NCBI GenBank assembly: GCA_030656555.1 | Contig: JAUSPN010000029.1 | Location: forward strand, 1 to 62,302 | Source: Candidatus Desulfaltia sp. | GTDB lineage: Bacteria > Desulfobacterota > Desulfobacteria > Desulfobacterales > ETH-SRB1 | Length of the DNA: 62,302 nucleotides | Direction of reading: 5' to 3' | Part shown: positions 48,173 to 62,160 of the stretch, one piece after another | Position numbering within the stretch: the stretch's first letter is position 1 | Layout of the letters: each line of letters opens with the position of its first letter | Made by a program: the position numbers and the translations under genes | The notes under the pieces: model-generated | The model's database searches: none | Told to the model about the DNA's origin: nothing | The model's input: the letters and a program-made list of their open reading frames with translations, nothing else

Positions 48173-49148
48173 ATGTCCAGACCGTTGAGAATAGAATATC
48201 CCGATGCATGGTATCATGTAATGAACAGGGGGAGGCGGGGAGAATCTGTTTTCCGAAAGAAGGAGGATTATCTTGCCTTTATTGAACTATTAAGAGAAAC
48301 TGTGGACATGTGGAATTTGAGAGTGGGGGCCTATTGTCTGATGCCCAGTCATTACCATCTTCTGATTCAAACCCCGGATGCAAACCTTTCCCGCTGTATG
48401 CGGCATGTTAATGGAGTCTATACCCAGCGGTTTAATCGGAGCCATGTCCTTGAAGGTCAACTATTTAGAGGACGGTACAAGGCGATTCTGGTGGAGGGGG
48501 GACAGTTACCTGCTGGAGCTGTTGAGATATGTTCATAGAAATCCTTTGGAAGCCGGTTTGGTGAAAGTGTTGGACAAGTACCCATGGGTCAGTCATCAGG
48601 GGTATTTATCTGATGCAAAGAAATGGAACTGGCTGTACAAGGACTTTATCCTATCTCTTTTTTCCGATGAAAAGGCAGTTAGCCGTAAAACGTATAAGGA
48701 TTTTGTTTCCAAAGGGACTCCGGAAGAGATTAACCGGATATTTGGCAGAAAGAATCTGCCGTCGGCACTGGGAAACAAAGATTTTTTGGACTGGGTGAAG
48801 GGTTCGTTTTTTTTCGGAAAGCGGCACAAAGAGGTGCCCGATTCCAAGAATTTATCGCCGGATGCAGAAAGGATAAAGGAGGAGGTGTGCAGAAAGTACG
48901 GGGTGGCAATGGATGAACTGCACAGATCAAGAAGGGGAATTTCAAATGAGCCGAGGAATGTGGCGATTTATCTGTTGAGGTCTCTGCGTGGAGACAATTT
49001 GGAGGAGATTGGCAGGGAATTCAACATCACCCGATTCAGTTCGGTCAGCAGTGTCGTAGAAAGAATGAGGGGGAAAATATCCGGGGATCGACAATTGAGA
49101 AGACGTGTCGAGGAAATCAAAACTGCCATTTACATGAGTCAAGCGTAG
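48173..49148 (+). pseudogene. REP-associated tyrosine transposase (RAYT), frameshifted, with DnaA-like domain
   Basis: The first frame (48173-48538) has the Y1 transposase start MSRPLRIEYPDAWYHVMNRG and the metal-binding HYHLLIQTP motif; the second (in frame to 49148) resumes with SYLLELLRYVHRNPLEAG, which contains the usual continuation. The break falls in a run of six G at about 48491-48500; five G would restore one protein of roughly 325 residues. The C-terminus (about 85 residues, AERIKEEVCRKYGV...SVSSVVERM) resembles the DnaA DNA-binding domain IV, as in one RAYT subgroup. Perfect inverted REPs flank it. The frameshift may be real, programmed or a sequencing error. Confidence 0.85.
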
Positions 49149-49859: not shown

Positions 49860-50501
49860 TCAGGTTAAAGTTCTCTGTTTTAGAAACTGATAATCTTTGC
49901 GGACAAAATTATCCGTCATCCCAATCAAACATACATAGCCAATAAGTTTGCACCTGTCTTTTACCTGTTGATAAAGATTATTCAACCATGAAAGGTGGTT
50001 TTCAATAAAATCGAGTTGAGCTTTCTGATACTTTTCAGGTGCGCCCTCCTCTTCTCCTCTGGTAATAAGAAAAGAGACGAATTCCAATTCAACAGGAAGG
50101 AAATCAGCAGTTTCGTTTTCAATATCAGCTCCGTATTGAAAATAAAATTGAGTTATCTCATTTAACGTTTCAAGATCTTTTTCTGCCCCTGCCTGTCGGG
50201 AATATTCACGCTCATAAAGTGGGCAGGGAGCTTTTGGATGACCCAACTCAAAGGTTGATACATATTCCGCCTGAAAATGATCAACACCCAGTCTCTCAAT
50301 ATCTTTCAGGATCTTTCTGGAATTTCCGGCTGTCCTGGAAATATCCTTATAAATTTCAGATTTTTCCTCCAATTGCTCAGCAGATTGAATCATATAAGAC
50401 AAATAGTCATCCATCTTCCTGACATCATCATCATAGGGATAATCAACAAGCTTGGATATATATTTATAAAGCATAGCTCTTAGTTCAGCCATTTCATTCA
50501 T
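49860..50501 (-). CDS. TorD/DmsD-type molybdoenzyme chaperone
   Basis: The 213-residue product belongs to the TorD/DmsD/NarJ-like all-helical chaperones that bind the Tat signal of a molybdenum enzyme until the cofactor is loaded. Family features are RAMLYKYISKLVDYPYD at the start, the LGHPKAPCPLYEREYSRQ block (the EYxxxF/PCPLYE motif of this family) near residue 88 and the ADFLPVELEFVSFL segment. The ATG at 50501 is chosen because AAGGGAATTAGT precedes it; a frame opening at 50606 adds unrelated residues. It is the last gene of the operon and should serve the molybdenum subunit encoded four genes upstream. Confidence 0.87.
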   Translation of the reverse strand: MNEMAELRAMLYKYISKLVDYPYDDDVRKMDDYLSYMIQSAEQLEEKSEIYKDISRTAGNSRKILKDIERLGVDHFQAEYVSTFELGHPKAPCPLYEREYSRQAGAEKDLETLNEITQFYFQYGADIENETADFLPVELEFVSFLITRGEEEGAPEKYQKAQLDFIENHLSWLNNLYQQVKDRCKLIGYVCLIGMTDNFVRKDYQFLKQRTLT

Positions 50502-50651
50502 ACTAATTCCCTTCAGCTTTTTATTAGAAAGTCGAATCCGGTTTCGGAATGCAGATTTCGGATTTAAGGTAATGGAGTCGCTTTGCTCCATCAGTTTAAA
50601 TTCCATTGCGCCGACTTTCTATGTTCGTTGTGAGTATCACGCTCATGCATT

Positions 50652-51128
50652 TTATGTTATACCCAGAGCATGAAGCAGAGGTTCCATAACAGTATATCCT
50701 TTTGCCAGATGTCCGCCTGTACCTCCAAGCAGAGAGACACATAATCCCCCGCCAATGGATAATAAAACTGCATAACAAAGACTTAGGTTCTCTTTCCATA
50801 TTTTTTCTTTTTTAAGAGAAACCAGATAGTACAGCCCCATATAAATGAAAAAAACAGCTATTACCAGGCTTATTTTAGCACTGAATACAGGTGATGCTGC
50901 AAAGGATGCTGTGGGAAAATCAATCATGGCTCCTGTAAATGCCAGAACAATTGTGATGATTGCCAGCAGCAAAAATATCTGTATGGGATATGTCAGTTTA
51001 ACAGCAAAATCTTCTTTATCACTTATCTTGGCAATCAACCCGATAATCACAAGCAGGCTTGCCCATAAAGGAAGAGCAACTGCTGAATGGGCAAGGATAA
51101 TATGCCATGTTGAATGCAGAGTAACCAT
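50652..51128 (-). CDS. Membrane protein, possible haem b anchor of the Mo enzyme
   Basis: The 158-residue product has four membrane segments (about residues 13-34, 46-67, 82-102 and 115-134). Histidines at residues 5, 9 and 14 before and within the first segment and at residue 140 (GTGGHLAKG) could bind haem b, which would make it a quinone-facing or electron-transfer subunit, but no family was recognised. AGGAGGTAACC precedes the ATG. It lies between the Fe-S subunit genes and the chaperone gene in the operon. Confidence 0.7.
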   Translation of the reverse strand: MVTLHSTWHIILAHSAVALPLWASLLVIIGLIAKISDKEDFAVKLTYPIQIFLLLAIITIVLAFTGAMIDFPTASFAASPVFSAKISLVIAVFFIYMGLYYLVSLKKEKIWKENLSLCYAVLLSIGGGLCVSLLGGTGGHLAKGYTVMEPLLHALGIT

Positions 51129-51163
51129 TGGTTACCTCCTTTTGTTTTTTGTATAGCGTTAAT

Positions 51164-51391
51164 TTATTCCAATCTGTTTTTGCTAAGAAAAATACCAATT
51201 CCCGCAAAAACTAGAGCAGATATTATGAAAATTACAAATTTACCAACAACCCATCCAGATGCAAAATTTGCCACTGCGCCGGGAGCTGTAACCAAGACAG
51301 CTATAAACATGTATATTATCAAGCAGATAAAAGGAATTAATGCCAGATAAGTACCCCAAAGACTGAATGCTTTTTTTACGGTTGTTTTCAT
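51164..51391 (-). CDS. Small two-helix membrane protein of the Mo enzyme operon
   Basis: The 75-residue product has a short basic N-terminus and two hydrophobic segments (about residues 14-36 and 46-68). Its ATG overlaps the stop of the Fe-S subunit gene by 4 bases, so the two are translated together and the protein probably anchors or stabilises the complex. No family was recognised. Confidence 0.75.
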   Translation of the reverse strand: MKTTVKKAFSLWGTYLALIPFICLIIYMFIAVLVTAPGAVANFASGWVVGKFVIFIISALVFAGIGIFLSKNRLE

Positions 51392-52293
51392 GAATAATTA
51401 CCTCCCAGATATCTGATGAGTTTAGAATTCCTCTTTTTCCTCTCTTTTTCCAGAATATCTTTTACTCTCCATACATCTTTCCCGAAAAATTCTTCCAGAT
51501 AGGGTTTGTCATATCTTTCTTTGCCGTTTACAGGAGGATTCAGTACCGGAGGAATATATAATACTCTTGGATTGGTCTTGTATTGCGGGAACAGTGGAAG
51601 AGCCACATTATATTCCTCTGCAAATACATGCACAGCGCTATTCGGATCTTCCAGATCTCCAAAAAATCTCACGTTCCCACCACATACACGTACACATAGA
51701 GGTGCTTCACCTTTTTCCACCAACGGCTCACACATTATACATTTCGCGGGCTGATTCAATTCATTGTTCCAGAAAATCCGCCTGTAGGGACATGAATGAA
51801 AACAGGATTTGCATCCTATGCAGACAGTTGGATCATGAATAACCATTCCCTTGTCAGTTTTATACATGGCATGGGCAGGACATACTTCCACGCATGGGGC
51901 ATCATCACATTGCATGCACTGGATTGGAAGATAAAAATACCATGCGTTTTCAGGGGTTTGACCCACACCTTTGTCAAAATCCCAGTTTGGCCCATACTTG
52001 GGCATGGGGTCAGGAAATATCCTGGGAAGGTCATTCCCTGAATGATCAGTAAGATTATATCTGAATTCAAATTTCGGCTCATAATCATTCATATCCGGCA
52101 ACAGCCCCTTTTTTACATTCTCAACCCATTTTTTAGGATAACCTGTCCCGGGACGCGTTTCAGTGATAATCCACCAGGCATGATGCAGTCCCTGCTGTTT
52201 AGATGCCCACCAGATTTTACATTCAACAGCACATGCCTGGCACCCCAGACATTTATTTAAATCCGCCACAATGGCATAGCCTTTTCTACTCAT
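51388..52293 (-). CDS. Four-cluster Fe-S subunit of a NarG/NXR-like molybdoenzyme
   Basis: The 301-residue product is a NarH/DmsB-type electron-transfer subunit with four cysteine groups: CLGCQACAVEC (residues 15-25), CMQCDDAPCVEVCP (about 126-139), CIGCKSCFHSCPYRR (about 158-172) and CIMCEPLVEKGEAPLCVRVC (about 184-203). This would hold three or four cubane-type clusters. WWASKQQGLHHAWWIITETRPG between the first groups resembles the type II (nitrate reductase, nitrite oxidoreductase, ethylbenzene dehydrogenase) beta subunits. It lacks a signal peptide and should be exported as a complex with the Tat-bearing Mo subunit. Confidence 0.9.
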   Translation of the reverse strand: MSRKGYAIVADLNKCLGCQACAVECKIWWASKQQGLHHAWWIITETRPGTGYPKKWVENVKKGLLPDMNDYEPKFEFRYNLTDHSGNDLPRIFPDPMPKYGPNWDFDKGVGQTPENAWYFYLPIQCMQCDDAPCVEVCPAHAMYKTDKGMVIHDPTVCIGCKSCFHSCPYRRIFWNNELNQPAKCIMCEPLVEKGEAPLCVRVCGGNVRFFGDLEDPNSAVHVFAEEYNVALPLFPQYKTNPRVLYIPPVLNPPVNGKERYDKPYLEEFFGKDVWRVKDILEKERKKRNSKLIRYLGGNYS

Positions 52294-52297
52294 TGTT

Positions 52298-55200
52298 TTA
52301 CTCCTTTTCTATTTCAACACTTGTATCACATTCGTTGCCGGTTACGCCCCAGAGATTCCATCCATATTTCAAATGATAAAATGGGGGGTTCTCTTCTTCG
52401 GGATAAATAACCGATTGTGTTGGTTTTGGCCGGACAGGAGTTACTGCATTATACCAGCCTTTAAAAAAGTTTATCATCTCAGCTCCGTTCTGTATCCAGA
52501 CTTCTCCCGGCTTTACTGATGGAGCGACCTTGGCCATGGTCTTGCACTCGCCGTAAATGTTGTAAACCCTTACGGTATCTCCATCTTTTATTCCTCTTTT
52601 TGCAGCATCAGCGCTGTTTACAGCAACAAATGCAGAGTATCTCTGCAACCTTAAAAGCAGATCCATATCCCTGAAAGTTGAATGGGTTCCCCATCTTTCG
52701 TGTGGTGTATTCAGCTTAAGAGGAGCAGGTTTCCCATTTGGCAGAAGATCGGTTTCCGGCTCTTTATACATCGGGAATTCTTCTCCCAGAGTAAGAAACG
52801 TTGAGTGATCAATGTAAAACTGCTGTCTTCCAGTAAGGGTTTTACCTCCATTGGGAACAACTCCCAAGTATCTGGAAATAAAAAGTTCATTGATCTCGTA
52901 ACCATTTTTATTCTTTTTCTGATAATGCATTTTTCCGCCAGCAGGAAAGGGAATTTTTTGTTCTATATTCTCCCTCCAGGGGTTCAAGGGTCTTTTCATG
53001 GTCTGGGCAGAGGGAAATGGAACCGGATGCTTTTTTATCAGATCGGTCAAGCCTTTGATATATCCGTCAGTATCTCCTTTAAACAGCATATTTTCAATAA
53101 TCATCCTCAATTCAGGGGCCATCTGATCTTTATATTTCATGTAACCGTCAGGATCAGGATAAAGAACAGGACTGTGTTTCAGGGTAAAGTGCACAGCCAT
53201 TTCTGCGGTTTCAAGGCAACCTTCTCTGCAGACACTTTTAAAATAAGGGTTTTCATTCCCATCCGCATCAATAAATTCTCTGTAAATCTTTGTATAATCC
53301 CTGTTTTTTTCATATTTGGCATCAAACCATTTAAGCCCGCCTCTTTTTTCTGCCTCATTGTTTACAGCCCTTGCAAGATCCTTGAATATTGTAAAATCAG
53401 TTTTTGTGTCATTTACAGGTTTTATTACCTCATTTTGTGCCTGCAGATAGGGATGCATGGGAGTTGTGGTAACATCAAATTTTTCATACCAGCCGGCAGT
53501 CGGCAAAACATAATCAGCAAATACTGCCGTACTGTTCATCCTGAAATCTATTACTGTAACAAGCTCCAGTTTTTCAGGATCATCAAACCATTTTTTAACC
53601 TGTGAACCACCTTTGGCCTGATTTAGAAAATTACCGCGCCATATGAACATAGCCTTCGGCCTTTTGGGCGGTTTAGGATATACCGGCATCCAGCCCTTTG
53701 CCAGAGATTTCAGTAAAAGGTAATTTTTATACCCCTCATGATCCTTGAGATCGAAACTGACAGGAGCATTCATTCCATCAGCATGCCCGCCTGGCAGCTC
53801 TTTAAGAAACCCACTTTCAACATCTTCTACAATTTCATTGAAATCCTTGCCCAGCTTCCACAGATTCATTATATAATGGGTCCAGACAAAAAGAGTTCCG
53901 TTTTCAGGTCTGGTCTTTAATATCCTGCCATACTTACCAAGCCCTTTTAACCATACCTTGTACTGTCCGGTATATTGATGAAAACCTGTTCCGTTTTTAC
54001 CGACATTTCCTGTCAGAGCAAGCATCAGAATCATTGTTCTGTTGTTCACGTCATTATTGTACCAGTGGTTGACACCTCCGCCTCCGATAATGGTTGTTTT
54101 TTTGGCTGCAATATTTTCTGCTAAATTGCACATTGCTTTTGCAGAAACACCTGTTATTTTTTCCGCCCATTCCGGGGTCTTATCCTTCATTCTCTCTTTA
54201 AGCAGAGAAAATACAGTCTTTACTTTTACTTTCTTCCCATCTTTAAGTTCAACGCTCCATTCTCCTTCCAGAGCAGGCTCAATGCCAAATTTTTGCAAAT
54301 CGAGCGATTCACGTTCATCACCACAGCAACCGGGAGCTATCTGCGGATTTCCTGTATTTTCATCCATGATATAAAGCTTGAATGGACTCCCGTCTTGTAT
54401 GATATCATTTTCTCTTAAAAATTTTCCGTTATCCATTCGCACAAGAAAGGGCATATCCGTAAAAAGTTTTACATACTCTTTATCATATAGTTCTTTTTTA
54501 ATAATATGGCTTATAACAGCATTTGCCAGAGCAGCGTCAGTTCCTGGCGTTACACTGATAAATTCATCTGCAATTCTTGCAGTTGCCGTAAAGTCAGTCC
54601 CTATATAAACTAAATTTGTGCCTCTGTATTTTGACTCGGTTACAAAATGAGCGGCTGCGATTCTTGTTTCGGCAACATTTGATCCCCACAAAATTAACTG
54701 CTCAGCATTTGTCCAGTCCCATTCTTCAGACTCTTCAGTCTGAGTGCCCCATGTAATCGGGTCTCCGGGAGGGAGATCACAATACCAGTCATAAAAGCTT
54801 AATGGGCCTGACGCTCCAAGGAGATTTGCAAGCCTGTAGCCCGCACCGGCAGATACGTAATTATAAGCGGGTATTGGAGAAAAGAAAACCAGAGAATCAG
54901 CTCCATCTTTTTCAATTATGTCTCCCATCTGTTTCGCAATGCCGCTCATGGCTTCATCCCATGAAACCCTCTTGAATTTCCCTTCCCCTCTTTTACCAAC
55001 TCGTTTGTACGGATGCCTGATACGTCCCGGACCGTGTATATACCTGACATATGAGGCGCCACGCATACAGCCTCTTGGATTATACGCGTTTTTTGCGACC
55101 GGATCGTAAACATCATAGTCTGAAGCCTGAATGAGCCCAGTTATCATATTCCCATTAACACAGGCATTCCAGCCGCATGCCTGGGTACAGTTTCCGGCGC

Positions 55201-55372
55201 ATGTCGATCTCACTGATCTGTCATATGCAACCATGCCTGCATACATGTCCTTTGTCCTTTTTCTTACATATCTGAATTCACCATGTAAGAGAGGAATCGC
55301 GCCCAGGATTGAAGCAGATGCCGCACCCGCGCCCAATAATTTAAGAAAATCTCTCCTCTTCATTTCACCCAT
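52298..55372 (-). CDS. Tat-exported type II DMSO-reductase family Mo subunit (NarG/NXR-like)
   Basis: The 1024-residue product starts with a twin-arginine signal (KRRDFLKLLGAG, residues 5-16). The N-terminal cluster motif is Cys58, Cys62, Cys66 and Cys102 (TCAGNCTQACGW...NPRGC); classic NarG has histidine at the first position. YDWYCDLPP (residues 194-202) holds the Asp that binds Mo in type II enzymes and is followed by TWGTQTEESEEWDW, very close to NarG. Later blocks are FTDMPFLVR and VNHWYNND. The family includes nitrate reductase, nitrite oxidoreductase, (per)chlorate and selenate reductases and hydrocarbon hydroxylases; the neighbours favour a nitrogen-oxide role. AGGAGG precedes the ATG. 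Confidence 0.9.
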   Translation of the reverse strand: MGEMKRRDFLKLLGAGAASASILGAIPLLHGEFRYVRKRTKDMYAGMVAYDRSVRSTCAGNCTQACGWNACVNGNMITGLIQASDYDVYDPVAKNAYNPRGCMRGASYVRYIHGPGRIRHPYKRVGKRGEGKFKRVSWDEAMSGIAKQMGDIIEKDGADSLVFFSPIPAYNYVSAGAGYRLANLLGASGPLSFYDWYCDLPPGDPITWGTQTEESEEWDWTNAEQLILWGSNVAETRIAAAHFVTESKYRGTNLVYIGTDFTATARIADEFISVTPGTDAALANAVISHIIKKELYDKEYVKLFTDMPFLVRMDNGKFLRENDIIQDGSPFKLYIMDENTGNPQIAPGCCGDERESLDLQKFGIEPALEGEWSVELKDGKKVKVKTVFSLLKERMKDKTPEWAEKITGVSAKAMCNLAENIAAKKTTIIGGGGVNHWYNNDVNNRTMILMLALTGNVGKNGTGFHQYTGQYKVWLKGLGKYGRILKTRPENGTLFVWTHYIMNLWKLGKDFNEIVEDVESGFLKELPGGHADGMNAPVSFDLKDHEGYKNYLLLKSLAKGWMPVYPKPPKRPKAMFIWRGNFLNQAKGGSQVKKWFDDPEKLELVTVIDFRMNSTAVFADYVLPTAGWYEKFDVTTTPMHPYLQAQNEVIKPVNDTKTDFTIFKDLARAVNNEAEKRGGLKWFDAKYEKNRDYTKIYREFIDADGNENPYFKSVCREGCLETAEMAVHFTLKHSPVLYPDPDGYMKYKDQMAPELRMIIENMLFKGDTDGYIKGLTDLIKKHPVPFPSAQTMKRPLNPWRENIEQKIPFPAGGKMHYQKKNKNGYEINELFISRYLGVVPNGGKTLTGRQQFYIDHSTFLTLGEEFPMYKEPETDLLPNGKPAPLKLNTPHERWGTHSTFRDMDLLLRLQRYSAFVAVNSADAAKRGIKDGDTVRVYNIYGECKTMAKVAPSVKPGEVWIQNGAEMINFFKGWYNAVTPVRPKPTQSVIYPEEENPPFYHLKYGWNLWGVTGNECDTSVEIEKE

Positions 55373-55473
55373 AATACTTCCTCCTGATTAAATAAGGACT
55401 GTTCGCAACACCGGCTTGTAAAACAGCCCGAAAAGATTGCTATATATAGCCTGGAATTCCATACTCCAGAGTT

Positions 55474-56868
55474 TTAATACGGCGCTGAACTCATAACCGT
55501 GCTTAATTCTTCAATCTTGTTGTTTTTCATCCGGTAGTCATAGATATCTTCCATATCTTTGTAAACCTGGAACATCTGGAAAGTGCCGTGCCAGTGGGCA
55601 TAGTCGGGTGCATTCATGGCGGCGCCCTGACGCGCTCGGCGGCCGGTATGATGCCACAGGTAGTACATGAGTTCCTGAAATCCATCCTTCCATGGATCCT
55701 TTTTCAGCAAGCCTTTGTCTGCCAGCTCTTTCTTCATCTTAATCGCGCCGGCCCATTGCTTGTTGTACAGCTCATTCACATTGTCCAAGGTTATTCTCTG
55801 AACACCTGTATGCGTCTTGCCGTGGCAGTTGGCACAAACCTTCCTCATTTCCTTGTCACCCTTTTCGCCATCGCCACGATCTCCGCTGCGAATGACACTT
55901 TTCTCATGCATCAAGTCCCATTTCAGCCTTTCCTGAACATTATGGGTAGTAGCCAACTCACCAATACCGCTCATGTGACAGGTAGCGCATGTGGGAGCAG
56001 TATAATCACCCGGTTCCCAAGTGTCCGGCGCGCTGTCAAATTTCCACTTGTCGCCGTGGGCCTGGAATTGCTGGCCGTGCTTGCTCTCGAGGTAAATTTC
56101 GATATTTGGATGATCCGGCCCAAGGTGGCAGGAGGCACAGGCCTCTGGTTTTCTGGCCTCGGCAATGGAAAAGGTATGCCGGGTATGGCATACCGTGCAG
56201 GTGCCAATGGAACCGTCCGGATACCGTGTTCCTACACCGCCCGGCCATGTTTCATTTATAGGCTTATTGTCAGGTCCCAATTCCACCTGAGTGCCGTGGC
56301 ACATCTGGCAGCCGGAGGCACGGGCGGCCCGGTTGTAAGGCGGTTGTCCCTTAGGAGTTAATCCTGTAGAAAGGTCAAGTTTGGCATTGTCCATAAATCC
56401 GCAGCCTTCATGCAAATATACCAATTTCAGTAAACCTTCCCTTTTCGGGTCACAAACTGCCGAACTGGACAGGGCTGCGTGTCCGCTCTTGAGAAACTGC
56501 TCCACTTCCTGGGGATGACACCTGGAGCAGGTTTTTGAGGATACCATTGGAGAGATATAAGTGCTTGTTCCTTTCAGGCCTTCACACTGAGCCGCCATGG
56601 GTGAACTTTTCTCTACAACATGGCAGTCGTAACAGGAAACACCAGCATGACTCATCTTGCTGGTCTTCCATGCCTCAACTTTACCGGGAATCTTTTTGGC
56701 ATGACATTCGATACAGCTTAATGCCTCCTTTGTGAACCCTCTTTTTATAATGAGTTCCTTTTTGTTCGCCAGATTGGGATATTCCGTTTGCGCCGAGGTG
56801 ATAACAGGAATCCCAACCATGAGCAAGCCGAAGCAGACTATTAATATTTTTCCGGTTGAATACTTCAT
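55474..56868 (-). CDS. Octahaem cytochrome c of the hydroxylamine oxidoreductase (HAO) family
   Basis: The 464-residue product has a signal peptide (to about residue 26) and eight CxxCH haem sites: CIECH, CYDCH, CSRCH, CQMCH, CTVCH, CASCH, CATCH and CANCH. The C-terminal block [24 protein letters not shown] is the family signature of HAO-like cytochromes. True HAO oxidises hydroxylamine with a tyrosine-crosslinked haem; the epsilonproteobacterial type paired with an NapC/NrfH protein reduces nitrite or hydroxylamine to ammonium. The gene pairing here (tetrahaem gene immediately upstream) favours the reducing direction. AGGGAGGAAAAT precedes the ATG. Confidence 0.92.
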
Positions 56869-56917
56869 ATTTTCCTCCCTACAGTAAAAAAGGTTTATTT
56901 CTGATGCGCTAAAGAAA

Positions 56918-57484
56918 TTAAGTTGCTTTCTTAAAATATTTATCGGATGCTTCTATCATATTCTTGTGGCCGACATGAGGATGACATTCAACGCATTTCT
57001 TATTTGTATCTCCCCGCAAGTAAGCACGATGAGCAATGAATCCGCCTGGTTTCATTCCGGGCGGTGTTAAAACATGGTGGCAATGCCGGCAGGCGCTGTC
57101 AAATGTGAATTTCAGCCGATTTTTTTCAGTAGCATCAGCCCAGTTGTAAGTTTGTGGATTAATATACAGATTGTGTACTAAATCGCTTATACCAGTAGTG
57201 GCTTTAACAGTGAAAAACTCGAAAAAATTACCATGAGGCAAATGACAATCGACACATTGAGCCGCAAACCCTTGAGGATTCTGACCGCCGTGTACCTCTG
57301 CCTGCCATGCAGTCCTGAATGGTGTCATGATATGACAGGAGACACAAAATGTATCGGTATTAGTAGTTTCAATCATAAAACCGGATGCCAGCACCATCAT
57401 TATAGTCAAAACAATGCCGATACCTGCTCCGAACCACCAGCCCTTTTTGCCGCTTATTTTCTTTAGATTAAACATTGAGACCAT
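56918..57484 (-). CDS. NapC/NrfH-type tetrahaem quinol dehydrogenase
   Basis: The 188-residue product has one N-terminal membrane anchor ([22 protein letters not shown], residues 16-37) and four CxxCH sites: CVSCH, CVDCH, CRHCH and CVECH. Such proteins take electrons from menaquinol and pass them to periplasmic multihaem enzymes. It is the first gene of the operon, 49 bases before the octahaem gene, and should feed that cytochrome. AAGGAGC lies 8 bases before the ATG. Confidence 0.93.
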
Positions 57485-57560
57485 TTATTTAGCTCCTTTT
57501 TTGATATAAAAAAGCTCTGGTTTATGAAACAGCAAATTGGTTATTTCATAGCAGAATATC

Positions 57561-57600
57561 ATGTAAAAAGGCAGTAAATTGCTGTAAAGAAATTGTAAAA
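57561..57600. promoter_or_regulatory. Candidate OmpR-type regulator site: four GTAAA direct repeats
   Basis: In the 232-bp spacer between the divergent respiratory operon and the two-component genes, GTAAA occurs at 57563, 57574, 57584 and 57595, spacings of 11, 10 and 11 bp, so all copies lie on one DNA face; a fifth copy is at 57658, 63 bp (six turns) further. Phased direct repeats are the usual binding form of OmpR-family regulators such as the one encoded at 59372. No clear -35/-10 pair was fixed for either gene. Confidence 0.45.
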
Positions 57601-57716
57601 ATATATGATATCTTGATAAGAAGGAAGAAGTTTGATAGTCAAATAATTAGGAAATTGTAAATTGGATAGATGCAGGATTTAATTTTGCAAAAAACTTGTT
57701 TAGGGAATAAAGACTT

Positions 57717-59369
57717 ATGCTTTCCTATATTAGGCGGAGAATTTCATTAAAGTATTTTATTATTACGTCGGCGACTATTGTATTTGTTTTCGCGGTTCTC
57801 TTTTTCTGGCTATCCCGTCAGCAAAAACAGTTTATTCTGGAACAGGTTAAGAAACAGGCCATCATTCTCCACAAACAGATTGTTCTGACCAGAGCATGGG
57901 TTTCAGACCACAACTATATCTTGGTTGAGAAGAAAAAAGGGGAGCATTTTGAATCATTTCTCAGAAATCCCGAAATAAAAGATGTTAACGGTAGAGTCTA
58001 TACAAAGATCACGCCGGCAATATTAACCAGACAGCTTTCAGGCTATGCAATGGAAAGCAATTTATATTTTTTTAATCTGACAAATATTAACTGCCTAAAC
58101 CCGAAAAACAAGCCTGATGATTTTGAAACCGACGCTATACGCATGTTTATATCAAGGGGAGAAAAAGGAGCAAGCCGTATCGAAATTCATGATGGAGCAC
58201 ACGTATTCAGGTATGCGGCCCCCCTTATCCTCAGAGAAAGCTGCCTTTCCTGCCACACCGAAAAACATTACAGGGCAGGAGGTGTCGGAGGCTGCATAAG
58301 TGTTTTCATTCCTTTTGAAGAGGCGCAGAACGCAATCCGCAGGAACAATTTATTTCTCTTTTTCAGCATGATTGGTCTTACAGGTTCAGTCGTTATGATC
58401 CTGTTTTTTTTCACAAGGAAACTCATATTTAAGCCGATTAAAGAGATCAGAATGTTTACCAGGCGGATGAGGACTGAAGAATTAGGAGATGAAGAAATCG
58501 AGATAAAAGGGGATGAACTGAAAGAATTCGCCGGTCTTTGTTATATGATGGATAAAAAGCTTAAAAGCCAGCACGATGAACTGGAGAAAAGAATTAAAGA
58601 AGCCACTAAAGATCTTTATAATACCAATTTGAAGCTTAAACAGGCCAATAAGGAACTGACGACACTCAACACCACTAAAACTGAATTTTTTTCAGACATT
58701 TCCCATGAACTAAGAACCCCTGTCACTTCCATAAAAGGGGCTGCTGATATCCTTTCAAGAAAGGGTTCCTGCAGCGATCCTACCTATGTTGATATTATAA
58801 AAAAGAATGTCGATCATCTTACACGAACAATTGTCGATTTTCTCGATTATTCAAAGATAGAGGCAGGCCGTCTCGACCTTGACATTAATGAAGCGTCACT
58901 TAAAAAGATTGCTGAAGATGTTATAGAATCTCAAAAAGCCATTGCATTGAAAAAGGAGCTAAGAATAGAGCTTGATGCGCCGGAAGATTTTATGCTGCCC
59001 CTTGACACATACAGAATTTATCAGGTTATATCGAATCTTATGTCCAATGCCATCAAGTTTTCTCCGGATAGTGGCATAGTATATATTCGTGTTTCCCGGA
59101 TGAAAAATGATATCGAATTTTCCATAAAAGATGAGGGGCCTGGAATTGAGGCTGAATATCACGAGTCTATCTTCAAGAAATTCTACCAGGTTCCGCAGAG
59201 AAATGGCACAGTGAACATCCAAAAAGGTTCATCCGGTATTGGGCTGGCTATTTGTAAAGGGCTTGTGGAAGCACATGGCGGAAAGATTCGTGTGGAAAGC
59301 AAAACAGGGAGTGGAAGCAAGTTTATTTTTACGCTGCCGCTGTATCATTTTCAATGCGAAACGGAGTGA
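57717..59369 (+). CDS. Histidine kinase with haem-c (Tll0287/DUF3365-like) sensor domain
   Basis: The 550-residue product has a first membrane segment (about residues 11-33), a periplasmic sensor domain of about 180 residues with CLSCH at residues 176-180, a second segment (about 216-236), a HAMP-like linker and coiled coil, the phosphoacceptor His330 (SDISHELRTP) and an ATPase domain with NLMSNAIKFS, DEGPGI and GSSGIGLAICKG. A CxxCH in such DUF3365-like domains binds covalent haem, suited to sensing redox state or a gas such as NO. It lies divergently next to the multihaem/Mo operon and is followed by its response regulator. Confidence 0.9.
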   Translation: MLSYIRRRISLKYFIITSATIVFVFAVLFFWLSRQQKQFILEQVKKQAIILHKQIVLTRAWVSDHNYILVEKKKGEHFESFLRNPEIKDVNGRVYTKITPAILTRQLSGYAMESNLYFFNLTNINCLNPKNKPDDFETDAIRMFISRGEKGASRIEIHDGAHVFRYAAPLILRESCLSCHTEKHYRAGGVGGCISVFIPFEEAQNAIRRNNLFLFFSMIGLTGSVVMILFFFTRKLIFKPIKEIRMFTRRMRTEELGDEEIEIKGDELKEFAGLCYMMDKKLKSQHDELEKRIKEATKDLYNTNLKLKQANKELTTLNTTKTEFFSDISHELRTPVTSIKGAADILSRKGSCSDPTYVDIIKKNVDHLTRTIVDFLDYSKIEAGRLDLDINEASLKKIAEDVIESQKAIALKKELRIELDAPEDFMLPLDTYRIYQVISNLMSNAIKFSPDSGIVYIRVSRMKNDIEFSIKDEGPGIEAEYHESIFKKFYQVPQRNGTVNIQKGSSGIGLAICKGLVEAHGGKIRVESKTGSGSKFIFTLPLYHFQCETE

Positions 59370-59371
59370 AC

Positions 59372-60070
59372 ATGGGACAAAATAAAATACTTGTTGTTGA
59401 CGATGACCATGATATCCTTACCATTTTAAAGGACAACCTGGAACTGGATGGATATAAGGCGTTCACAGCAACACTCGGCAAGAATGCCATCTCTATTTTT
59501 GAAAAAGAATCTATCGATCTGATTGTGCTGGATCTCATGCTGCCGGATATAAATGGTGTCCAGGTCTGCCGCGCTGTCAGAGCTAAATCTCATGTGCCCA
59601 TCATTATGCTTACCGCAAAGGACGGCGTGTCTGACAAGGTGCTTGGCCTGGAAAGCGGAGCTGATGATTATCTCGTCAAACCCTTTGATTACCTGGAACT
59701 GGCTGCACGTATCAAAGCCCAACTAAGGAGGAGCGGCTCTTATTTATCTGGAGATGAGATTTTTAAGGTCGGCGACTTGCGGCTTAACCCCGAACAACGT
59801 GAAGTGGAAGCTAACGAAGAAAAAGTCATTTTAACCAAAAAGGAGTTCGATATCCTTTTCCTGCTCTTTAAGCACGCCGGAAAAGTGATAGATAGAGATA
59901 CTATTAAACAAGAGATCTGGCCGGGTGAGAAACTGTATAAATGGAGCAGAACTCTTGATGTCCATATCCAGCATCTAAGAGCCAAGCTGGAAAAAAACCC
60001 TGAGCAGCCCCAATATATTCTTACCGTTCCGGGTGTTGGTTATATGCTGAGCAACCCGGATTCCGCCTGA
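59372..60070 (+). CDS. OmpR-family response regulator
   Basis: The 232-residue product has a receiver domain with the acidic pair near residues 10-12 (VDDDHD), phosphoacceptor Asp54 (VLDLMLPD), Thr (MLTAKD) and Lys (LVKPFDY), then a winged-helix DNA-binding domain (LTKKEFDILFLLFKHAGKVIDRD...RTLDVHIQHLRAKLE...VPGVGYML). The ATG at 59372 is preferred: GGAG lies 6-9 bases before it, and an ATG at 59354 lies inside the kinase gene. It most likely acts at the GTAAA repeats upstream of its own operon. Confidence 0.93.
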   Translation: MGQNKILVVDDDHDILTILKDNLELDGYKAFTATLGKNAISIFEKESIDLIVLDLMLPDINGVQVCRAVRAKSHVPIIMLTAKDGVSDKVLGLESGADDYLVKPFDYLELAARIKAQLRRSGSYLSGDEIFKVGDLRLNPEQREVEANEEKVILTKKEFDILFLLFKHAGKVIDRDTIKQEIWPGEKLYKWSRTLDVHIQHLRAKLEKNPEQPQYILTVPGVGYMLSNPDSA

Positions 60071-60134: not shown

Positions 60135-60196
60135 TTGGACAAATGAAGTTTCACACGAGGAACTTGTGACCATGTTACGTGTTAAAGGAGGCATAT

Positions 60197-60799
60197 ATGT
60201 ATTGCAGGCGCATTAGGTTCACCCCGATTTTCTTTTTTATCCTGATCCTGTGCAGCCCGGTTGCAACCTACGGCGGTACGCCAATGGAGGGCGTGAGGGA
60301 TACAACCAACAAGATCATCGCCATTGTCAGCGATCCTGCCCTGAAGACTCCTGATAAGAAAAAGGAAAAGGCCGGATTGATCAGGGCTGCTGTTGATGAG
60401 CGGTTTAATTGGGAAGAGATGTCAAAAAGGGCATTGGCCAGGCACTGGTCGGCAAGAACGGGGGAGGAAAAAAAGGAATTTATCGCCCTGTTCGGAAAAT
60501 TGCTTGAACGCACGTATTTGGATAAAGTGGAAGACTATTCCGGTGAGAAGGTCCTTTATGTTGATGAGGTTGTGGATGGAAAATATGCAACGGTTTCCGT
60601 CAAGATTGTGACAAAGAAAGATACGGAAATCTCAGTCCTGTACAGGGTCAAAAAGGATGGAGATAACTGGCTGGTTTATGACATCTCCATTGAAGGGGTG
60701 AGCCTCATCAATAATTACCGAAAACAGTTCAACAGCATTATCGTCCAAAACTCTTACAAAGAGCTTGTGGATAAACTCAGAGAGAAGGTGGAGAAATGA
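60197..60799 (+). CDS. mlaC: MlaC family phospholipid-binding periplasmic protein
   Basis: MlaC shuttles phospholipid between the outer-membrane MlaA complex and the inner-membrane MlaFEDB transporter. The 200-residue product has a signal peptide (to about residue 24), the VDERFNWEEMSKRALARHW block near residues 66-84 and the VYDISIEGVSLINNYRKQF signature near residues 157-175. AAAGGAGG 7 bases before the ATG at 60197 decides the start. It overlaps the mlaA start by 4 bases; the transporter genes are not seen. Confidence 0.92.
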   Translation: MYCRRIRFTPIFFFILILCSPVATYGGTPMEGVRDTTNKIIAIVSDPALKTPDKKKEKAGLIRAAVDERFNWEEMSKRALARHWSARTGEEKKEFIALFGKLLERTYLDKVEDYSGEKVLYVDEVVDGKYATVSVKIVTKKDTEISVLYRVKKDGDNWLVYDISIEGVSLINNYRKQFNSIIVQNSYKELVDKLREKVEK

Positions 60800-61524
60800 G
60801 GGCTTTGTTGCATTTTTCGGGAGATGCTGTTGAGAAGAGAAATACAGCGCTGAGGGAAGGCCGCAGCCTTTTGGCTCCCCTCTTTGGTGTGCCGGCTCTT
60901 TTTTTCTCCTGCATCCTGTTTTTGTTATTCTGCAGATCTCTTGCCTGGGGCATTTCAGAAATTCCTACCTCTTCTCAGGGTGAAAACCCTTTCTATACAG
61001 AGACGGAGGCCCACGAGATTACCGGTTCGCATTCCCCGGGGGATAGCTTTTCGGCGGGAGTTCGTTTAGACGGCGAGCAGGGTTTGAAAGTGGCCGGCCT
61101 CCAGGATTCCCAAAAAGAACCGCCGCCGGAGGCAGGGCCGAAAAAGCAGGTGCAGGAGGAGGATAACTGGATGGAGGAAGGAGAATCTCAATCGCCTCTT
61201 CCTGACCCGCTGGAACCTGTGAACCGTGCCTTTTTCCATTTTAACGACAAACTCTATTTCTGGTTCCTTAAGCCGATTGGCCAGGGATATGAAATAGCGC
61301 TGCCCCTTCTTGCAAGGGTATCCATCCGCAACTTTTTTTCCAACCTGATGATGCCTGTCCGGGCAGTCAGTTGCCTCCTGCAGGGTAAATTCAAAGGGTT
61401 TGGCATTGAGTTGACCCGCTTTATGGTCAATACCTCCGCCGGTTTCTTAGGTTTTCAGGATGGGGACGGACAAAGGGGGACGGGGTTGAATTTAGGCGTT
61501 TCTTTTTTCATTTGCTTGTGGTAA
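60796..61524 (+). pseudogene. mlaA: MlaA (VacJ) lipoprotein gene, 3' truncated by mobile DNA
   Basis: The frame encodes an extended N-terminus with a hydrophobic segment (about residues 30-52) and an acidic, Pro-rich linker, then the MlaA domain: DPLEPVNRAFFHFND near residue 137, LPLLARVSIRNFFSNL near 170, LLQGKFKGFGIELTRFMVNTSAGFLGFQD. The family then continues for some 90 residues with an EDFGQTLG segment; here it stops after about 20 residues of foreign sequence (from 61470 on, GACAAAGGGGGACGGGGTTG), just before a transposase gene. The remainder of the gene is not found in the window, so function is probably lost unless a second copy exists. Confidence 0.8.
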
Positions 61525-61533
61525 TGAAGTCAC

Positions 61534-62160
61534 ATGCCACGTCAAGCCAGAATAGATGCGCCGGGTACCCTGCATCATATTATATGCAGGGGTATCGAGC
61601 GACGAAACATTTTTAAAGACAATACCGATCGAAACCGGTTTTTGGAAAGACTCGGTTCTGTTTTGCAAAAGACCTCCACACCCTGCTACGGCTGGGCGTT
61701 GATCCCGAATCATTTCCATCTTCTTTTAAAAACCGGCAAAGAACCGATTGCTCAAATTATGCGACGACTTCTGACCGGCTATGCGGTTACTTTTAACCGG
61801 CGGCATCGCCGTTACGGCCGTTTATTTCAAAATCGCTACAAATCGATTTTGTGCCAGGAAAACACTTACCTTCTGGAACTGGTGCGCTATATCCATTTAA
61901 ATCCGATTCGGGCCGGGATTATAAAAGATTTAAAGTCGCTTGACAGTTATGCCTACACCGGTCACAGCATTATTATGGGAAAACGCAAAAATCCTTGGCA
62001 AGATATTGATTCAGTGTTGCAACTCTTTGGTAAAAGCCAATATGCGGCACGAAAAAAGTACCGGGACTTTGTGGAGAAGGGCATCGGCCAGGGACGAAAT
62101 CCGGAGATAACCGGAGGAGGACTATTAAGGAGTATCGGTGGTTGGGGTGTATTAAAATAA
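61534..62160 (+). CDS. REP-associated tyrosine transposase (RAYT), short form
   Basis: The 208-residue product has the Y1 transposase N-terminus MPRQARIDAPGTLHHIICRG, the metal-binding NHFHLLLKT motif near residue 63, the YGRLFQNRYKSILCQ block and YLLELVRYIHLNPIRAG. Family members of this subgroup usually continue for 60-100 residues after GGGLLRS.GGW; here a stop follows seven residues later, so the C-terminus appears cut. It lies between the truncated mlaA and the start of an ISL3-type transposase gene. GGACGGGGTTGAATTTA at 61477-61493 may be its REP-like end. Confidence 0.88.
   Translation: MPRQARIDAPGTLHHIICRGIERRNIFKDNTDRNRFLERLGSVLQKTSTPCYGWALIPNHFHLLLKTGKEPIAQIMRRLLTGYAVTFNRRHRRYGRLFQNRYKSILCQENTYLLELVRYIHLNPIRAGIIKDLKSLDSYAYTGHSIIMGKRKNPWQDIDSVLQLFGKSQYAARKKYRDFVEKGIGQGRNPEITGGGLLRSIGGWGVLK

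Follow-up and report, generated by a model that had tools for sequence, protein, structure and literature searches.

What is the function of an operon that joins a NarG-like molybdenum (Mo) enzyme with an octahaem cytochrome c (OCC) of the HAO superfamily, and that is divergent from a haem-sensing two-component system? Such a locus occupies positions 49860-60070 of a 62,302-nucleotide stretch of Candidatus Desulfaltia sp. DNA (contig JAUSPN010000029.1), called here the window. All nine genes of the original prediction, made from the sequence alone, were located there with the same strands and coordinates, and the divergent layout was confirmed. The seven genes on the minus strand are transcribed in the order NrfH-like protein, OCC, Mo subunit, iron-sulfur (Fe-S) subunit, 75-aa protein, 158-aa protein, TorD-type chaperone. 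Since neighbours overlap by 4 bp at most or lie no more than 101 bp apart, they are considered as one operon. No NarI-like or NapA gene was observed within it upon inspection of open reading frames and Pfam domains. We consider it moderately probable that the locus encodes a periplasmic respiratory module reducing nitrate to nitrite and then to ammonium. The gene content, export signal, cofactor-ligand residues, separate phylogeny, conserved neighbourhood and lack of other evident nitrate and nitrite reductases are observed; the substrates, electron route and signal of this module are predicted. The earlier claim of a respiratory N-oxide module is supported.

The Mo catalytic subunit (1024 aa, 52298-55372, minus strand) contains domains PF00384 and PF01568. 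Its best NCBIfam model is TIGR03479, type II dimethyl sulfoxide (DMSO) reductase (5e-224, 746 bits, below the cut-off of 985). The narG equivalog TIGR01580 scores 408 bits with a cut-off of 1084. Among solved structures the matches rank, by score, PcrA (507 bits), NarG, EbdA and KsNXR. A scan of named genomes produced two close relatives, one from a Thermodesulfatator metagenome-assembled genome (MAG; locus L005, 72% identity) and one from a Desulfurococcales archaeon MAG (L006, 69% identity). The references of the first phylogenetic tree were NarG of E. coli, Thermus and Rhodococcus, two haloarchaeal NarG, PcrA, ClrA, EbdA, a chlorite-dismutase-linked reductase and environmental relatives. 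In the second tree, pieces of KsNXR-A read from HMMER alignments were added, NXR being represented by this one partial sequence.

In both trees the window protein, its two close relatives and proteins from families f56 and f89 of the same phylum form one clade (support 100/100) inside the type II DMSO reductase radiation. In the second tree this clade is sister to the group of NarG, haloarchaeal NarG, PcrA and hydroxylases (96/98). The approximately unbiased (AU) test rejected forced unions of the Mo subunit with NarG of the E. coli type (p 0.009), with all Nar including the haloarchaeal ones (p 0.026), with PcrA (p 0.003), and with the EbdA-like hydroxylases (p 0.004). EbdA also carries Ile at the position of Asn61 of the clade. 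The Mo subunit is placed outside NXR, and the union with the single partial NXR sequence is marginal (p 0.061). Its identity to KsNXR is 33% over 496 columns, compared with 44% to PcrA and haloarchaeal NarG. As judged from the sequence, the Mo subunit appears to represent a separate, uncharacterised lineage of type II DMSO reductases and is not a NarG. With the references of these trees, it did not fall within a hydrocarbon hydroxylase or sulfur-compound clade, a placement that would have contradicted the original prediction.

The full-length members of the clade coincide with E. coli NarG at 11 of the 12 Mo and FS0 cluster positions, namely Asn61, Cys62, Cys66, Trp68, Cys102, Arg104, Tyr197, Cys198, Asp199, His436 and Trp437. 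The matched NarG equivalents include Asn52, Asp222, His546 and Arg94. The Mo ligand Asp199 aligns with NarG Asp222 and lies within the motif FYDWYCDLPP. The string YDWYCDLPP, earlier taken as a mark of the NarG/NXR branch, is indeed present, but it is not diagnostic, as the protein belongs to its own deep clade and its union with NarG is rejected. Arg104, Tyr197-Cys198-Asp199 and Trp68 agree with E. coli NarG and not with PcrA.

The single differing position is Cys58, which replaces the FS0 ligand His49 of E. coli NarG, so that the candidate ligands of FS0 are four cysteines, C58, C62, C66 and C102. The pattern CxxxCxxxC(x)nC is found in all eight clade members that have this region, instead of the pattern HxxxCxxxC(x)nC, which seems to be conserved across all type II enzymes (PMC8301774). 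The anammox-type FS0 with an Asp ligand is not observed either, as Cys62 aligns with Asp71 in the ligand set C67/D71/C75/C115 of KsNXR (PMC8387239). Two long-branch sequences positioned close to the base of the tree, Halobaculum L058 and L002, have the same cysteine, which thus may be the old state. A lower potential is to be expected of an all-Cys Fe-S cluster. The clade would offer a natural test of the role of the FS0 histidine in nitrate reductase, since the active site of NarG is kept and the cysteine is present. Bacterial outward-facing NarG relatives with the usual FS0 histidine (L033 in genome G184, L034 in G121) belong to another family of the phylum and have different neighbours.

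The Mo-Fe-S dimer is predicted to be periplasmic, because the twin-arginine translocation (Tat)-like motif KRRDFLK of the Mo subunit resembles the haloarchaeal NarG Tat motif [ST]RRxFLK (PMC8301774). The corresponding motifs are TRRSFLK in L005 and SRREFLK in L006.

The lineage is rare and patchy, but its context is strongly conserved. In Thermodesulfatator, genes for an OCC (57% identity) and an NrfH-like protein are divergent from the genes for the Mo subunit, Fe-S subunit, membrane protein and TorD, and no kinase gene adjoins. The archaeal contig contains the set Mo-FeS-75aa-158aa-TorD, which does not include an OCC gene. This set (L006, 9974-15533) lies near complex-I-like genes in a Desulfurococcales contig, as would follow from transfer between domains. 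Members of the clade were found in 6 of the 395 sampled genomes of the window's phylum, with about 54% identity and all in families f56 and f89, and in one of the 398 sampled genomes of Thermoproteota, that of L006 itself. Thus the lineage is spread over several Desulfobacterota families and one Desulfurococcales archaeon. Six further species of the window's genus and ten species from other genera of its family were sampled, and the module was observed in none of them.

The sister operons of f56 and f89 have the order (CRP)-regulator-Tll0287 kinase, divergent from Rieske-cytochrome b-subunit IV-octahaem-SurA-like-Mo-FeS-TorD. This order was derived from L027, L028 and L030; L031 and L032 are fragments. 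The gene of the hydroxylamine reductase Hcp is directly downstream in L030, and the start of an Hcp gene is seen at a contig end in genome G139. Overall, the Mo gene adjoins an OCC gene in seven of the nine genomes where the lineage was found (the window, L005, L027, L028, L030, L031 and L032); that related genomes have both enzymes agrees with the original prediction. As the neighbourhood recurs in Thermodesulfatator and in two further families of the window's phylum, the pairing is not due to chance. The quinol side is exchangeable: NrfH is found in the window and L005, and in the other five Mo-OCC genomes it is replaced by the Rieske/cytochrome b complex with subunit IV. The SurA-like periplasmic chaperone gene stands between the octahaem and Mo genes (8015-8632 in L030, 6916-7431 in L027). 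In genome G103, the Mo gene (L029, short contig C66) is directly behind a transposase-like gene, and its Rieske-cytochrome b-octahaem locus (L105), which lies elsewhere, is followed by a gene encoding a NarX/PilJ-like sensor protein.

The OCC (55474-56868, minus strand) has eight CxxCH motifs and domain PF13447. Its best match among solved structures is IhOCC of Ignicoccus (4qo5, 1e-35), and the HAO motif of haems 4 and 5 with Asp-His is conserved (CxxCHxRH...GPDH). The haem cross-link residue Tyr467 of NeHAO (GGWTY467TEGW) was located using Ruegeria HAO as an alignment bridge. The residue in the corresponding column varies with the alignment, being Trp426 or His425, and Tyr423 is two to three residues off. 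No tyrosine was observed at the cross-link position in any aligned Mo-paired OCC. This tyrosine is present in oxidative HAOs and absent from reductive ones (PMC12758564), and hence the window OCC is likely of the reductive type, a predicted nitrite or hydroxylamine reductase. This makes the oxidative direction, which the original prediction had left as an option, unlikely.

In the OCC tree, the window and Thermodesulfatator proteins form a pair (100/99), which is nearer to IhOCC and to NapC-linked Desulfobacterota proteins than the form from f56. We also considered that the two operon forms recruited their OCCs independently. The OCCs of the two forms do not group as sisters, but one common origin was not rejected (p 0.21), and no claim is made. 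The AlphaFold model of the OCC, with mean pLDDT 40, was too poor to be of use. NapC-OCC gene pairs also occur on plasmids, in Desulfosarcina (L098, 3768-10128), adjoining norR and a nitric oxide (NO) reductase gene, and in Desulfobaculum (L097, 3801-5798). The window's genome encodes a second HAO-family octahaem protein (contig C40 of G000; L107, 6649-7962), adjoining rubrerythrin/desulfoferrodoxin-like genes. Its C-terminal sequence DYAYWYGW puts a tyrosine on the Tyr467 column, unlike the OCC of the operon.

The first gene of the operon (56918-57484, minus strand) encodes a NapC/NrfH-type tetrahaem membrane quinol dehydrogenase with an N-terminal hydrophobic anchor, four CxxCH motifs and domain PF03264 (5e-30). 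It matches the cytochr_NrfH equivalog below the cut-off (2e-22) and NrfH in the PDB (2j7a). NrfH is a quinol-oxidising electron donor. The earlier suggestion that the NrfH-like protein and the OCC are a nitrite/hydroxylamine reductase pair is supported as likely. The window's genome (2.73 Mb, completeness 100) contains neither NrfA nor Hcp. Besides the Mo subunit, its molybdopterin enzymes comprise two formate-dehydrogenase-like proteins (assigned by sequence features), QrcB and a PhsA-like protein, and no NapA or NarG was found among them. Therefore, the Mo enzyme and the OCC are the only evident nitrate and nitrite reductases of this genome.

The NarH-like Fe-S electron-transfer subunit (51388-52293, minus strand) contains Fer4_11; its best NCBIfam model is TIGR03478 (260 bits, below the cut-off), and it matches PcrB in the PDB (4ydd_B, 6e-67). 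The gene of the 75-aa small membrane protein (51164-51391, minus strand) shares 4 bp with the end of the Fe-S gene, and the archaeal L006 has a homologue in the same position. The 158-aa membrane protein (50652-51128, minus strand) has four long predicted helices and invariant residues W8, H9 and H14, and its counterparts in L005 and L006, 45-48% identical, occupy the equivalent position. It may anchor the Mo-Fe-S dimer in the membrane or serve as its electron inlet. It has no Pfam match above the cut-off, and no solved fold matched its AlphaFold model (pLDDT 67) at E<0.001. Kinship with DUF2231 was considered and rejected, as homologues reach only E 0.6-1.5. The last gene of the operon encodes the TorD/NarJ-type chaperone (248 aa, 49860-50606, minus strand), with PF02613 above the cut-off and TIGR03482 DMSO_red_II_cha below it (7e-21). 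An internal start near Met36 is possible.

On the plus strand, the sensor histidine kinase (57717-59369) has a periplasmic Tll0287-like domain with CxxCH (PF11845, 8e-19), HisKA and HATPase_c, and is thus a Tll0287-type sensor. The CxxCH motif suggests that it may carry covalent haem. It is followed by an OmpR/PhoB-type response regulator (59354-60070; PF00072 Response_reg and PF00486 Trans_reg_C). Similar kinases are divergent from the sister operons in L027, L028 and L030, where the regulators are 48-50% identical to that of the window. Two Tll0287-type sensors above the Pfam cut-off are encoded in the window's genome, one of them in this locus. As the kinase is kept in both operon forms and the genome has only two such sensors, we take it to be a dedicated switch. 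The AT-rich divergent control region (57485-57716, 232 bp) contains two copies of an 11-bp direct repeat, GAAATTGTAAA (57589-57661), possibly a site of the regulator. A search for shared 8-mers found none that the window region has in common with two or more of the three divergent promoter regions of the sister operons.

The following scheme may be suggested. The TorD-type chaperone would load the Mo subunit, and the Tat system would export it, folded, together with the Fe-S subunit. At the outer face of the inner membrane the Mo subunit would reduce nitrate to nitrite, receiving electrons from menaquinol via the Fe-S subunit and FS0. The inlet to the Fe-S subunit could be the 158-aa protein with its invariant His9 and His14, or perhaps the NrfH/octahaem pair; the small membrane proteins probably pass electrons to this subunit. 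The NrfH-like protein would oxidise menaquinol and feed the octahaem protein, which in turn would form ammonium from nitrite, as well as from hydroxylamine or NO. Finally, the haem kinase and the OmpR-type regulator may turn the operon on in response to the periplasmic redox state or to N-oxides. Nitrate is the proposed substrate because the new Mo lineage fills the slot of Nap, has the active-site residues described above and is linked to Hcp. Tentatively, the Mo enzyme may be a deep, independent nitrate reductase lineage with an all-Cys FS0, joined in one operon with an octahaem nitrite reductase and a haem switch.

However, several observations weigh against nitrate ammonification. Firstly, the FS0 composition is precisely the change, His to Cys, that abolished the activity of E. 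coli NarGHI (PMC8301774). Secondly, the scores with the narG and type II models are below the cut-offs. Thirdly, the partners are not constant: the archaeal enzyme occurs without any OCC relative or Hcp in its genome (G448), in G103 the Mo gene is separated from the OCC locus, and Hcp is absent from the window's own genome. Finally, in the sister operons the cytochrome b matches ExtP of selenite/tellurite operons, though below the cut-off.

The latter resemblance is one reason to consider a different oxyanion (selenate, tellurate, chlorate or perchlorate, arsenate) as the substrate of the Mo enzyme, the OCC being a carrier or handling a toxic product such as selenite. Type II enzymes are substrate-promiscuous, which we count in favour of this explanation, and the best-scoring solved relative of the Mo subunit is a perchlorate reductase, PcrA. 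On the other hand, the grouping with PcrA is rejected and Arg104, Tyr197-Cys198-Asp199 and Trp68 are as in E. coli NarG; chlorite dismutase is absent at the loci, unlike the ClrA/PcrA clusters; and the partners Hcp and NrfH/OCC indicate nitrogen. Overall, another oxyanion seems unlikely.

It is quite improbable that the OCC is simply an electron conduit from quinol (via NrfH or Rieske/cytochrome b) to the Mo enzyme, so that the module yields only nitrite or only detoxifies NO. Indeed, the only arrangement shared by both operon forms has a quinol dehydrogenase and then the OCC beside the Mo enzyme, the archaeal locus lacking the OCC retains the two membrane proteins, as if these were alternative inlets, and transfer from Rieske to multihaem proteins has been proposed (PMC5317091). 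Nevertheless, the conserved Asp-His in the HAO motif of haems 4 and 5 argues for catalysis, and the window's genome has no other evident nitrite reductase. The oxidative direction, with the Mo subunit as an NXR-like nitrite oxidase or a hydroxylase and the OCC as a hydroxylamine oxidase, has very little chance of being correct: the union with NXR is only marginally rejected and KsNXR also has Cys at the NarG-His position (PMC8387239), but Cys62 stands in place of KsNXR Asp71, the identity to KsNXR is low, the hydroxylase grouping is rejected, the OCC has no cross-link tyrosine, and NrfH donates electrons from quinol.

The module has the same G+C content, 42.0%, as the remaining window. It is flanked by genes of REP-associated (Y1) transposase-like proteins at 48173-49148 (frameshifted) and 61534-62160. 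Directly 3' of the regulator gene are MlaC-like and MlaA-like genes of outer-membrane lipid transport (60179-61524), assigned by sequence judgement.

If nitrate ammonification is the function of the locus, this process escapes current gene surveys in anaerobes without Nap, Nar and NrfA, because the Mo subunit scores under the cut-offs of the narG and type II models. Given its spread over Bacteria and Archaea with two quinol inlets, the enzyme would be a movable respiratory part. The union of the two enzymes in one operon, called unusual in the original prediction, has a precedent: in Caldithrix, the Nap cluster holds Rieske/cytochrome b and adjoins epsilon-Hao without the tyrosine (PMC5317091). 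Also, a HaoA homologue is near Nap in T. dismutans (PMC5276818), and in Desulfurivibrio dismutans Nap works together with other octahaem reductases (PMC12142623). Thus the architecture is already known, and the new element is the identity of the Mo enzyme that fills the Nap slot. In effect, the window locus would repeat the known pairing of Nap with epsilon-Hao for ammonification, except that an uncharacterised Mo enzyme of type II takes the place of Nap.

Indeed, the Nap plus epsilon-Hao systems of Caldithrix abyssi, Denitrovibrio and Epsilonproteobacteria (reverse hydroxylamine:ubiquinone redox module, reverse-HURM, type) likewise combine a periplasmic Mo enzyme, an octahaem protein without the cross-link tyrosine and a quinol dehydrogenase, and NrfA is absent both there and in the window. 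The Rieske/cytochrome b of Caldithrix corresponds to the quinol dehydrogenase of the sister operons. However, the window enzyme is of type II with a NarH-like Fe-S subunit, not NapA, and the window adds the Tll0287 haem sensor pair. The haloarchaeal pNarGH of Haloferax and Halomicrobium also has a Tat-exported catalytic subunit, a NarH-like subunit and a TorD-type chaperone without NarI, and the haloarchaeal nar operons have the order Rieske-cytochrome b-NarG-NarH-TorD, as in the sister operons. They belong to a different clade: the haloarchaeal enzymes have FS0 His and an adjacent Lys where the window has Cys and Arg, and they have an EbdC-like gamma subunit, absent from the window, and no octahaem protein. 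PcrAB and ClrAB are of the same type II family, and PcrAB is the best solved match of both window subunits, but the window differs in FS0 and active-site residues, in the lack of chlorite dismutase and in the rejected union with PcrA. The periplasmic NXR-A of Kuenenia and Nitrospira is a type II enzyme with the Asp Mo ligand, the Asn, and Cys at the NarG-His position, as in the window; however, FS0 of KsNXR is Asp-ligated, the window has no EbdC-like subunit, and the two do not group, their union being marginally rejected. Finally, IhOCC of Ignicoccus hospitalis and the HAOr-type proteins have eight haems and no Tyr at the cross-link position, as does the window OCC, which has Asp-His in the active-site loop, in place of Asp-Val of IhOCC, and forms a sub-clade with its Thermodesulfatator counterpart.

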